A DNA stretch of 64,000 nucleotides from Planctomycetia bacterium (GTDB lineage: Bacteria > Planctomycetota > Planctomycetia > Gemmatales > HRBIN36). Under the pieces are notes generated by a model, which was not told the origin of the DNA, did not search any database, and saw only the letters and a program-made list of their open reading frames with translations. The stretch is from the NCBI GenBank assembly GCA_016795155.1, contig JAEUIE010000003.1, forward strand, positions 124,001-188,000, given 5' to 3'. Positions 26,365-29,353 of the stretch are shown in pieces. The number at the start of each line of letters is the position of its first letter. Within the stretch, counting starts at the first letter, position 1. Position numbers and translations under genes: made by a program.

Positions 26365-27105
26365 ATGCCCCATTCGTTTTTATTTGCAGAAAGTGCCTTC
26401 ATCAAGTTTGTCACTCATGACACGCTCTTTGCAGTAATCCTGTTCGCAATGACCTTTATCGGTGCAACCTTGGTGGTCTGGCGACTTTGGCTGAATTATA
26501 ACGCTAAGACTGATCTGAATCTGTTTCTCCCCAAGTTTCAGGAAATTCTGAACAAGGAAGGCATCGATGGAGCATTGAAGTTCTGCAAAGCTCAGCCCAA
26601 GAACGAACACATTCCCAGTACACTCTTTGTTGCTGGATTGGAAAAGCACAAAGAGGGTCTAGCAGCTATGCGTAAAGCCATGGCGAATGCTGTCGATCTG
26701 GAAATTATTCCCGCACTGAATTTCCTGCTTCCCACCATTCTGGCTTTTGCCAAGATTGCAACCATGGTTGGGTTGCTCTTTACCATTATCTCGATGATTG
26801 GAACCTTCTCGGCATTGGGTGAAGCCAGTGAGAAGGGGACCGGTGGACAGGCTCAGGCGAGTGCCGAAATCGGTTTGGCACTCTTTGCAACGATGCTGGG
26901 ATTGCTCACTGCAATTCCACTGGTGTTCACTCACACGCTGTGCAAAGCCTGGACACACAAGTTCGAGATCAAGATGAAGAATGCCGGGCAGAAGTTACTG
27001 TTGCTGACCCAGGCAGCCAAGACCACGCCACCCATGCAGGGTGCTGCAGTGCCCATGGCGGCAGCGGTAGCCGGCCGGCCGATGGCTGCTCAAACGGTTC
27101 GCTAA
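26365..27105 (+). CDS. exbB: MotA/TolQ/ExbB proton channel family protein
   Basis: 246 residues. One transmembrane helix near the N-terminus (about 20-42, LFAVILFAMTFIGATLVVWR), a cytoplasmic helical stretch (FCKAQPKNEHIPSTLFVAGL, RKAMANAVDLEIIPALNFLL), and two C-terminal helices (about 118-145 and 170-192) with ATMVGLLFTIISMIGTFSAL and AEIGLALFATMLGLLTAIPL, the conserved ExbB/TolQ pore. The Thr/Gly patterns of the proton path are preserved. The C-terminal tail is Ala/Met-rich. It heads a three-gene set with two ExbD-type genes, forming a stator that uses proton flow to drive an unknown outer-membrane process. Confidence 0.92.
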   Translation: MPHSFLFAESAFIKFVTHDTLFAVILFAMTFIGATLVVWRLWLNYNAKTDLNLFLPKFQEILNKEGIDGALKFCKAQPKNEHIPSTLFVAGLEKHKEGLAAMRKAMANAVDLEIIPALNFLLPTILAFAKIATMVGLLFTIISMIGTFSALGEASEKGTGGQAQASAEIGLALFATMLGLLTAIPLVFTHTLCKAWTHKFEIKMKNAGQKLLLLTQAAKTTPPMQGAAVPMAAAVAGRPMAAQTVR

Positions 27106-27132
27106 TCTTTCTCTTGCGAGTAATGCATCAAG

Positions 27133-27837
27133 ATGCCCGCAGACACCCCCCGTTTCTTCAATGTCTGGCTTGTTCAGCCTAACACCGTCTATCGGGGTGT
27201 GCCTTTTTCTGTCGTCTGCGACTGGATACAGGAAGGCAGGCTACTTGGACGTGATTGTGTGCGTACTCCCGGTGCACCCGCCTGGGAATATCTCGATGCC
27301 CACCCGCTGTTTCAACCTTATTTTGGCCTAGGTGGGTTGCCCACAGCACAGGATGCTGCGGAAGCGCTTGAACCTATCGAGATCGATTTTGCAGCAGCCA
27401 AAAAACCGGAGGAAGAGGATGAAGATGTTGACATGATTCCGCTGATTGATATCAGCATGGTTCTCCTCGTGTTCTTCATGATGACGGCTCAGAATCTGAT
27501 TACCGCTGCACCCTTCAAGATTCCGGCTGTCAAGATTTCGGAAATCTCTGACAGGCAAGGCAATGTCACCATCAGTGCCCGTCGCGATGTGGATGATGAA
27601 ACTAAAATAGCTTATCACTTTAAGGAAAACTATACCGACAAATTCACTGAACAGGAAGTGCTGGACAAGGTGCGGGAGGAAAAGGCTGGTGCCGGTATGC
27701 AGTTGAAGATCGTACTGCAGGTTGAAGCTACATTACCTTTTGAAAAGGTACAGTCGCTGATGATGGGGCTGGAGCGTATGGGAATCAAGAATTATGTTGC
27801 CAAGGTTGCACCAGCAGCCCAGGCAGGTGGAGAATAG
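27133..27837 (+). CDS. ExbD/TolR-type stator protein with GYF-like N-terminal domain (1)
   Basis: 234 residues. Residues about 7-60 form a cytosolic GYF_2-like domain (FNVWLVQPNTVYRGVPFSVV, CDWIQEGRLLGRDCVRTPGA, AWEYLDAHPLF), followed by an acidic linker (EEEDEDVDM). The ExbD core starts at DMIPLIDISMVLLVFFMMTA with the proton-relay Asp in the single transmembrane helix (about 103-122), then a periplasmic domain of about 105 residues. The GYF-like head before the membrane helix is not part of classical ExbD/TolR and could dock a cytosolic partner. It lies 27 bases after exbB and 54 before a second ExbD of the same design. Confidence 0.9.
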   Translation: MPADTPRFFNVWLVQPNTVYRGVPFSVVCDWIQEGRLLGRDCVRTPGAPAWEYLDAHPLFQPYFGLGGLPTAQDAAEALEPIEIDFAAAKKPEEEDEDVDMIPLIDISMVLLVFFMMTAQNLITAAPFKIPAVKISEISDRQGNVTISARRDVDDETKIAYHFKENYTDKFTEQEVLDKVREEKAGAGMQLKIVLQVEATLPFEKVQSLMMGLERMGIKNYVAKVAPAAQAGGE

Positions 27838-27891
27838 TCCCCGTGATTCATCGCGGGTTTTCGAACGGTTACGCTTTCAAGGAATAACGGC

Positions 27892-28572
27892 ATGTCGTGG
27901 CGATTACGTCATGAAGGTTCACCGCAGCCGATTGCTCAGCCTCTCACCACTGAGCAGATCGTTGAAGGGCTGAAAGATGGCGTTTATGCCACGACCGATG
28001 AAGTGCGTGGCCCCAGCGATTCCAACTGGGTTCGTCTGGAAAATCATCCATATTTTGCAGAAGTCTCAGAAGTCATTCAGGACATCGAAAGCGAAGCTAC
28101 GCACGAAGCGGATGATAACAACATCGATATGAATCCGCTGATCGACGTGTGTCTGGTATTGCTGGTGTTTTTCATTCTTGCCACCACCATGTCGGTCATG
28201 GAAAGGGTGATGCGTCTGCCTGCGAACCAGAAAAATGATCAGGAACCGCGTGTACTTCCACCCGAACTGACGCAGAAGTACATCATGCTCCGCGTTGAGA
28301 AAAAAGGGGCTGCCACCCAATTCAAAGTGAATGAATACGTGGCAGATGATGATGACAAATTGCTTCGCGAACTGGAACGGCTTGTCCGCGAAGGCAAAAC
28401 GGAACTCATTCTGGATATTGGCCCTGGCGTTGATTTTGGCAGCTACACCAAGGCTGTTGAAAAAGCGGGTGAAGCTCGCGTGACGCGTATTCTCACGAAA
28501 GCGGTGGCGAAACCCGGGAAACGAGGCGCTGGTCCGCCGGCAAAAGCTGCTGCTCCGGCGCCAGCCAAGTAG
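27892..28572 (+). CDS. ExbD/TolR-type stator protein with GYF-like N-terminal domain (2)
   Basis: 226 residues; AAGGA 8 bases before ATG. The cytosolic head (about 1-60) again looks GYF_2-like: SWRLRHEGSPQPIAQPLTTE, QIVEGLKDGVYATTDEVRGP, NWVRLENHPYFAEV. The ExbD core is NIDMNPLIDVCLVLLVFFIL with the conserved membrane Asp (about 82-102) and a periplasmic domain ending DIGPGVDFGSYTKAVEKAGE. An Ala/Pro/Lys-rich tail closes the protein. Two different ExbD subunits per ExbB suggests a heteromeric plug. The lipase-like gene starts 7 bases downstream. Confidence 0.9.
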   Translation: MSWRLRHEGSPQPIAQPLTTEQIVEGLKDGVYATTDEVRGPSDSNWVRLENHPYFAEVSEVIQDIESEATHEADDNNIDMNPLIDVCLVLLVFFILATTMSVMERVMRLPANQKNDQEPRVLPPELTQKYIMLRVEKKGAATQFKVNEYVADDDDKLLRELERLVREGKTELILDIGPGVDFGSYTKAVEKAGEARVTRILTKAVAKPGKRGAGPPAKAAAPAPAK

Positions 28573-28579
28573 GCTGTTC

Positions 28580-29353
28580 ATGCCCGCTGTTGTTACGTTA
28601 CGTCATCCCCTGATTTTAGTACATGGCCTGTTTGGCTTCGATTCTTTCCGAATCGCTGGCTGGCAGGCCATGAACTATTTTCGGGGCATCGGGGAAGCAC
28701 TCAAAGCGAAAGGTCACCGTGTCACTGCGCCGCGGCTTAGTCCGATGGGTGGCGTGGCAGATCGTGCCAGGCAACTGACCGAGTTCATTCAACAGACACA
28801 TCCCAACGAAAAAGTGCATCTGATGGCTCACAGCATGGGTGGGCTGGACTGCAGGTATGCAGTGACCTGCCTGGGGCTTGATCAACATGCTCTTTCACTT
28901 ACCACCATCGGCACACCACACCAGGGCACCACTGCTGCAGATATTGGCGTCAGCAGGCTGGAAGGCTACATCAAGCCCTGGCTTCGCTATCTCAACATTC
29001 CGCACAATGCCTTTTACGATCTGATGACCGATCGCTGCCAGGCGTTTAACGAAAAAGTAATAGATGTTCCGAGTATACAGTACTATGCGGTGGCTGGTCG
29101 CAATTCTGGCGCCTGGCTCAGCCCCGAATGGTGGGTTTCCTACGGCATCGTAATGCTTCGCGAAGGTGCTAACGATGGCATCGTTTCCATCAAGTCTGCG
29201 GTGCATCACTATGAGCATGAAATCTGGGATGGTGACCATTTGAGCCTGGTCAACTGGCCGAATCCTCGAGCCATCGCCCAGGGCATCTGGCGAGCCAGGC
29301 AGGATCAGTATTTTGCGCTGGTGGATCGATTGTCGGATTTCGAAAATATGTAA
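28580..29353 (+). CDS. Lipase-like alpha/beta hydrolase
   Basis: 257 residues. Opens PLILVHGLFGFDSFRIAGW with the HG oxyanion motif of bacterial triacylglycerol lipases, then VHLMAHSMGGLDCRYAVTCL with nucleophile Ser in AHSMGG (near residue 78), the Asp in EGANDGIVSIKSA and the His in WDGDHLSLVNWPNP, so the triad is complete. TTIGTPHQGTTAAD is also typical for the family I lipases. No signal peptide, so it is probably cytoplasmic. It is only 7 bases behind exbD2 and likely shares the operon; its substrate is unknown. The convergent threonine synthase gene ends 6 bases away. Confidence 0.88.
   Translation: MPAVVTLRHPLILVHGLFGFDSFRIAGWQAMNYFRGIGEALKAKGHRVTAPRLSPMGGVADRARQLTEFIQQTHPNEKVHLMAHSMGGLDCRYAVTCLGLDQHALSLTTIGTPHQGTTAADIGVSRLEGYIKPWLRYLNIPHNAFYDLMTDRCQAFNEKVIDVPSIQYYAVAGRNSGAWLSPEWWVSYGIVMLREGANDGIVSIKSAVHHYEHEIWDGDHLSLVNWPNPRAIAQGIWRARQDQYFALVDRLSDFENM

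Follow-up and report, generated by a model that had tools for sequence, protein, structure and literature searches.

A 64,000-nucleotide stretch of the Planctomycetia bacterium assembly GCA_016795155.1 (order Gemmatales; contig JAEUIE010000003.1, positions 124,001 to 188,000, forward strand) encodes a motor unit comprised of an ExbB/TolQ-like subunit and of two different ExbD/TolR-like subunits, ExbD1 and ExbD2, each of which carries a GYF-like head ahead of its transmembrane helix. This whole stretch is referred to as the window, and coordinates given without a locus or contig name are positions in it; the host genome measures 5.28 Mb and is distributed over 68 contigs. The architecture of the headed motor is well supported. 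In 50 of the 61 genomes compared (60 relatives and the host), the headed ExbD1 is found together with a TonB-like protein having a single membrane helix, referred to as the transducer, whose short tail displays a conserved pattern. We infer tentatively, and with somewhat less than even confidence, that the GYF-like heads (chiefly head 1) bind the presumably cytosolic tail of this transducer and so pair the motor with it.

Architecture of the headed motor

The gene for the ExbB/TolQ-like motor subunit (246 amino acids; 26365..27105; Pfam MotA_ExbB, 4.8e-15) is followed after 27 bases by that for ExbD1 (234 amino acids; 27133..27837; Pfam ExbD, 1.8e-12) and, after another 54 bases, by that for ExbD2 (226 amino acids; 27892..28572; Pfam ExbD, 2.6e-11), all three on the plus strand. 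The Pfam ExbD matches span residues 94-225 of ExbD1 and 74-200 of ExbD2, and with 47.9 and 44.1 bits, at a curated PF02472 cut-off of 25.4, they identify both proteins as members of the ExbD/TolR family. Approximately 96 residues precede the transmembrane helix of ExbD1 and approximately 76 that of ExbD2. These residues are composed of a head of about 60 residues and of an acidic linker, which in ExbD1 is long and predicted with low confidence. Head 1 corresponds to residues 8-66 of ExbD1 (27154..27330), as delimited on the AlphaFold2 model mfbdbf97ef6a9, and head 2, the divergent GYF_2-related head that ExbD2 has of its own, to residues 1-57 (27892..28062), as delimited by profile comparison.

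The transmembrane segment of ExbD1 (27421..27498; helix 107-124 in the model) includes the conserved Asp106 (codon 27448-27450), and that of ExbD2 (28120..28197, placed on an alignment of 45 rows) includes the conserved Asp85 (codon 28144-28146). Both residues are invariant, D106 in 61/61 and D85 in 45/45 aligned rows, the motif used to pick the rows having admitted either Asp or Asn at the site. The periplasmic ExbD domain of ExbD1 (27553..27813) gave VIA-align Z scores of 7.2-10.6 to TolR/ExbD periplasmic domains, with 10.6 for TolR (5by4) and 10.2 for ExbD (8p9r). ExbB was aligned by phmmer with TolQ chains from the PDB, and in two of its helices one Thr per helix matches a TolQ Thr; these are the channel threonines of ExbB/TolQ proteins.

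The organization of the locus was compared over 65 loci (the window and L065-L128), some of which are cut by contig ends, so that all adjacency counts are lower bounds. An ExbB homologue is located 5' of ExbD1 in 56 of them. A different contig of the host genome encodes a further ExbB-ExbD-ExbD set (L174, G000:C55:1145-2276), in which the ExbDs have short cytosolic ends only, so that headed and headless motors can be contrasted within one cell.

Fold of the heads and kinship to GYF domains

A first-pass annotation of this DNA, made from the sequence alone, had described GYF-like heads on both ExbDs. This description was borne out, for head 1 by predicted structure together with profiles, and for head 2 by profiles. 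The AlphaFold2 model of ExbD1, built on 61 sequences, displays an ordered GYF-like fold and no disordered N-terminus, with a block-mean pLDDT of 94-97 over residues 11-60 and, in order, a strand (8-13), a strand (18-24), a helix (25-34) and a strand (42-44). When the model was compared with known structures, five of the eight listed rows covering head 1 were GYF domains, namely those of GIGYF1 (7ruq, Z 6.4, root-mean-square deviation (rmsd) 2.5 over 56), Smy2 (3fma, Z 6.4, and 3k3v, Z 5.8), GIGYF2 (7rup, Z 6.3) and GltJ (7z3c, Z 6.3, rmsd 4.8 over 70), a Z below 8 being weak by itself. The three remaining rows were chloroplast TIC or TOC-TIC chains with higher Z (7.9, 7.2 and 6.9), and the Foldseek E-values of the GYF entries against the ExbD1 model were 0.07 or above, which is insignificant alone.

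At the level of single sequences the kinship is faint. Pfam reported no GYF_2 domain (PF14237) for head 1 at E values as high as 1, head 2 taken by itself reached E 0.13 with 12.5 bits, short of the 25.8 cut-off, and a sequence search of the PDB using the heads gave no credible match. Among relatives, GYF_2 matches up to E 1 were obtained for 3/30 ExbD1 (best 0.018) and 1/22 ExbD2 (0.0015). Profile comparison with hhalign against 20 GYF_2 domains from the same genome group yielded probabilities of 87.4 for head 1 and 63.6 for head 2, and a probability of 94.7 was found between the two head profiles. In a re-run the scores against GYF_2 were 30.3 (head 1) and 27.8 (head 2), and in each of six comparisons none of 100 column-shuffled controls scored as high as the real profile. 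The ligand-binding signature of GYF domains reads GP[YF]xxxx[MV]xxWxxx[GN]YF in the accessible text of PMC12034629. Head 1 has kept the Gly and both Trp residues (the first one and that in the helix), as well as VP[FY] in most sequences; the full signature is found in neither head. Since predicted structure and profile comparison agree on the GYF relation of head 1, the model and the profiles together support a GYF fold for it, and the profiles support head 2 as kin of head 1 and of GYF_2.

Conservation and distribution of the heads

ExbD1 homologues with the head included in the match were found in 51 of the 61 genomes, a count based on one query protein. The pair of headed subunits is a nearly constant feature: of the 60 named loci in which ExbD1 is headed, 57 have a headed ExbD2 by profile, and the other three show no ExbD2.

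Residues W12, P24, D41 and W51 of head 1 are invariant in the 18 heads, 30 rows and 61 rows examined, and residues G9, D36, W46 and H52 of head 2 in 16 heads and 45 aligned rows. The 61- and 45-row sets were picked by patterns demanding two head Trp residues and the helix motif, so that invariance and identity in these sets are somewhat flattered. Outside the pattern, W12 is replaced by Phe in two loci (L121 and L125); among unpicked ExbD2 loci, Phe replaces W46 in L114 and Tyr replaces H52 in the divergent heads of L105 and L112. Locus L126 is headed yet was not picked, and L127 is cut.

After removal of rows more than 90% identical (61 to 53 rows for ExbD1, 45 to 42 for ExbD2), the mean pairwise identities of head, linker, helix and periplasmic domain were 0.51, 0.27, 0.71 and 0.30 for ExbD1 and 0.485, 0.34, 0.81 and 0.37 for ExbD2, respectively. 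In smaller sets free of the two-Trp pattern, comprised of all 30 loci of the homologue search for ExbD1 (26 after the same filtering) and of 22 of these 30 for ExbD2 (19 after filtering), head and periplasmic identities were 0.46 versus 0.25 and 0.46 versus 0.30, respectively. Because the identity of the heads exceeds that of the periplasmic domains, the heads are, as far as sequence identity tells, under more constraint than these domains. Such conservation supports the cytosolic partner that had been postulated for the heads at first pass.

Two headed ExbD loci resembling those of the Gemmatales come from records labelled Bacteroidales (L103) and Candidatus Kuenenia (L115); these labels, or the bins, may be wrong. 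A scan of named genomes with a clade-derived pattern (PLID[IV]S[LM]VL together with an acidic stretch), which has little bearing on other phyla, returned three Elusimicrobia loci that match the ExbD part only.

A TonB-like transducer accompanies the headed motor

One cluster of homologous genes, convergent with the motor genes and located 3' of them, was found in 24 of the 65 compared loci. It encodes the transducer, a protein of 310-360 residues in which a short tail leads into a single predicted membrane helix, and a linker rich in glycine connects the helix with a C-terminal domain. Reading-frame shadows aside, no cluster near the motor other than those of ExbB, the ExbDs and this transducer was present in more than 16 of the 65 loci. 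A Pfam search with 19 members gave no convincing match, TonB and vWA included (best E 0.07).

By profile, the transducer is present in 51 of the 61 genomes. Headed ExbD1 and transducer are both present in 50 genomes and both absent from nine, while one genome has ExbD1 alone and one the transducer alone (Fisher p 5.7e-9, a value that is too small because the 61 genomes are related). The genomes without the pair are spread over several genera, and g13 and g17 each hold both states. Since all 61 genomes encode some ExbD, it is the headed kind that tracks the transducer. The best partner candidate found for the heads is this TonB-like transducer, which was out of view of the first-pass annotation because its two genes in the host are located on other contigs.

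The tail of the transducer displays the pattern [F/L/I]WxxYSxHxEFP[L/I]S in 45 of 47 non-redundant proteins (7 of 54 matches having been removed for identical last 80 residues), and the other two are close variants. Within the 45 tails a Trp is present in 42, and a Pro occurs within the nine residues upstream in 40. If the transducer has the topology of TonB, its tail would be cytosolic, like the heads. In 34 of 45 transducers the helix carries a His spaced as in TonB of E. coli, the other 11 being without it, and the Ser position of the 34 His-bearing helices is occupied by Ser (23), Ala (8) or Thr (3). According to the accessible text of PMC12204202, TonB and TolA bind the motor through the Ser-His motif. 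These features give the transducer a likeness to TonB and mark it as a putative relative.

The C-terminal domain of the transducer was modelled with high confidence (L074:6423-7466, minus strand; model m0eb419aac17e, residues 206-348). Comparison with PDB structures gave nothing above Z 2.8, and a TonB/TolA fold remains compatible with the model; the domain may represent a new or strongly altered fold.

In five loci (L105, L112, L115, L117 and L118), head 1 has IPA for VP[FY] and the tail has ESF for EFP, a joint deviation on both sides of the proposed contact.

Sister families and other classes of the phylum

In a sample of 392 genomes from the phylum, the transducer profile matched 34 further genomes, 33 of which belong to sister families of the same class (f3-f7). 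This set of 33 loci retains L242, whose reading-frame start is doubtful, and a second copy in G367 stands outside it. The tail pattern described above was found in 0/33 of these loci; by eye, 32 of the 33 tails have another pattern, around [YF][DEN] ahead of the helix. An ExbD pair adjoins the transducer in 27 of the 33 loci, and its second member has a CxxC...CxxC head before the linker in 24 of the 27. No open reading frame (ORF) of at least 100 codons on the motor strand of the f3-f7 loci matches either GYF-like head profile. Head and tail thus both differ in these families, which means that the tail changes where the head changes.

These CxxC...CxxC heads are zinc-ribbon-like and are likewise followed by an acidic linker (among L215-L246, for example L243:3654-4427 and L222:3643-4272). 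Two of these heads were searched against Pfam and gave no match above the cut-off.

GYF-headed ExbDs beside or near ExbB were also found in 6 of the 392 genomes, belonging to families f32, f45 and f60 (L170, L171, L172, L173, L251 and L252); the stretches read there showed no further ExbD. The ExbD1-head profile had reached six further genomes in the sample, with four headed ExbDs and two other proteins (L134 and L138), and another profile of such heads eight, with six headed ExbDs (G086, G104, G111, G131, G149 and G167, of which G086 and G104 were new) and two other proteins (G205 and G355). A profile built on four of the f32/f45/f60 heads gave probabilities of 97.1 to head 1 and 95.0 to GYF_2. 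In four of the six genomes a vWA protein resembling a force transducer lies alongside the headed ExbD, as identified by Pfam in one (G131, VWA_3, 4.9e-13) and by eye in three, and the helix of this protein has S...H in the three with a readable start. Because the ExbDs of these three families carry the head, it is not limited to Gemmatales; as judged from profiles and motifs, the GYF-like head extends beyond this order and accompanies two kinds of transducer.

Proposed mechanism and alternative explanations

Based on family knowledge and on the conserved residues, an ExbB pentamer surrounding an ExbD1-ExbD2 heterodimer would form a proton-driven inner-membrane motor of the 5:2 type. Each ExbD would provide a proton-binding Asp for proton flow and would hold its GYF-like head, on a flexible acidic linker, at the cytosolic side. 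The heads would dock the juxtamembrane tail of the TonB-like single-helix transducer encoded elsewhere in the genome; this docking would match the transducer to the headed motor instead of the cell's headless ExbBD, and engagement of the motor could be gated from the cytosol. Binding of the tail by the head would account most simply for the co-occurrence and for head and tail differing together, and the two motor sets of the host genome imply that motors need sorting. A broader version, which we regard as possible but doubtful, is that exchangeable ExbD heads, of the GYF-like type in Gemmatales and in three further families and of the zinc-ribbon-like type in the sister families, constitute a pairing code that reads matching transducer tails, wiring and switching each motor from inside.

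Several observations weigh against docking of the tail by the heads. The tail could equally touch ExbB. In most sequences of head 1, Arg-Leu/Val takes the place of the signature Tyr-Phe, with a spacing two residues shorter, and head 2 has neither the GP[FY] stretch nor the helix Trp. The first-pass annotation had envisaged a head of the proline-rich-peptide-binding type; a cytosolic partner is still implied, and a classical proline-rich ligand is made doubtful by these replacements. On the other side of the proposed contact, PP precedes only 23 of the 45 tails and neither of the two in the host, and the tail is therefore not termed a classical GYF ligand. The two transducers of the host have kept the His of the helix and have Ala at the Ser position. 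Their genes, on contigs C12 and C15, are unlinked to the contig of the window, and the neighbours of both, inspected by eye from ORF starts with no family search, suggested no shared function. The pairing also has exceptions, G004 having a headed ExbD with no transducer match and G054 the reverse; its statistical support is inflated by relatedness, and the correlation between head and tail corresponds mainly to one phylogenetic split.

Other roles for the heads were weighed on the same evidence. The match of head 1 to the GYF domain of GltJ (7z3c), together with the zinc-ribbon-like head at the same place in the sister families, GltJ having a zinc-finger domain as well, would fit heads that bring the motor to some other protein of the cytosol with a positional or regulatory role, as is thought for GltJ, with the transducer tail binding ExbB or membrane lipids. 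Eukaryotic GYF domains do bind peptides of other proteins, one case being found in the accessible text of PMC12034629. We consider such recruitment rather unlikely, as no further gene cluster exceeds 16 of the 65 loci and the Roadblock/LC7 family is absent from the genomes. A search for a Myxococcus-like partner of this family found PF03259 in 0/61 genomes, while 3/14 control genomes gave matches. The heads could also act on their own motor with no third protein, either through dimerisation of the ExbD1 and ExbD2 heads or as an inhibitory plug on the cytosolic side of ExbB, a reading to which two distinct but related heads in a fixed pair (57/60 loci) and the long acidic linkers of low predicted confidence lend themselves. 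It is nevertheless improbable, given the lone headed ExbD beside ExbB in f32, f45 and f60, and it leaves the conserved tail of the transducer unexplained. The incomplete ligand-contact signature would suit heads that are ordinary stabilising extensions with no specific ligand; this is very unlikely, given that the heads exceed the periplasmic domain in identity and that their W, P and D residues hardly vary.

The last alternative concerns the gene that follows the motor. A lipase-like alpha/beta hydrolase (257 amino acids; 28580..29353, plus strand; Pfam Abhydrolase_1, 7.4e-9) starts 7 bases past the stop codon of exbD2, and these ORF positions and the 7-base distance to its ATG agree with the first-pass annotation, in which the coupling was taken to suggest a membrane-lipid or uptake job. 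Apart from this adjacency, such a role could draw on a homologue in a Gemmataceae locus and on two plug-domain matches in the host genome; it is nonetheless extremely unlikely. Lipase homologues (E up to 1e-8) lie near the motor in just one other of the 65 loci and in a differing place, and the lipase as a general part of the unit was rejected (2/65 loci, the window included); judging by this distribution, the lipase is unlikely to be essential to the system. Uptake fares little better: the plug domain of TonB-dependent receptors was found in 12 of the 61 genomes (11 above the cut-off), the host included, compared with 51 having a headed ExbD, and all 12 are among the latter. The remaining 39 of these 51 genomes are without a plug-domain receptor, so that energising of receptors, though possible in the 12 genomes, cannot explain the headed motor in those 39. 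In the Gemmataceae locus (L074:3341-4108), the lipase homologue is 52% identical and lies directly upstream of ExbB, on the side of the motor opposite to that in the window.

Comparison with known systems

The headed motor shares with ExbBD-TonB and TolQR-TolA the ExbB/TolQ subunit, ExbD/TolR subunits with a transmembrane Asp, the periplasmic ExbD fold (in the ExbD1 model), and a single-helix protein having the His in 34 of 45 cases and the Ser also in 23. It differs from both in that its two ExbDs are distinct proteins and both bear a head in the cytosol, whereas ExbD and TolR of E. coli have a short cytosolic end only. The Gemmatales transducer, unlike TonB, has no Pfam TonB match, and most genomes with a headed ExbD (39/51) show no plug-domain receptor.

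Closer in phylogeny are the vWA force transducers of Planctomycetes, already known to occur with TolQ and a pair of heterologous TolRs according to the accessible text of PMC12204202. This system comes from the same phylum and combines paired TolRs with a TonB-like transducer having another output domain. In contrast, the 19 Gemmatales transducers gave no vWA match, and the word GYF is absent from the main text of PMC12204202.

In the Agl-Glt gliding machinery of Myxococcus, an envelope machine that TolQR-like proteins drive, GltJ likewise has a GYF domain (7z3c) facing the cytosol. The GYF domain of GltJ is not located on a stator subunit, and the cytosolic part of this protein, which includes the zinc finger, is thought to recruit a partner. 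This partner, MglB, is a member of the Roadblock/LC7 family, which sets the Agl-Glt system apart from the headed motor, as no genome of the 61 encodes a member of that family. With GYF and GYF_2 (PF14237) domains themselves, the heads are alike in predicted fold (head 1) and in profiles (both), and unlike in falling below the Pfam cut-off, in the replaced Tyr-Phe and in the missing GP[FY] of head 2. GYF domains are described in planctomycete conflict systems in PMC7159879, whose accessible text makes no mention of ExbD or TolR. In the open-access literature, no publication was found that joins a GYF domain with ExbD, TolR with GYF, or DUF4339 with ExbD, and the two listed for ExbD together with a zinc ribbon concern unrelated topics.

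To our knowledge, the ExbBD, TolQR and MotAB motors have been studied chiefly from the membrane and the periplasm. Small cytosolic domains whose conservation exceeds that of the periplasmic one, together with a candidate ligand to match, make it possible to test with peptides and small domains how a proton-driven force motor might be controlled from the cytosol, and headed motors occur in an order having cultured members. The nearly constant association of the headed motor with one TonB-like protein in related genomes suggests that selection or control of the motor by the cell is possible from inside. The motor is of a known kind, and its GYF-headed ExbD pair is a new variant of the ExbBD-TonB/TolQRA motors.

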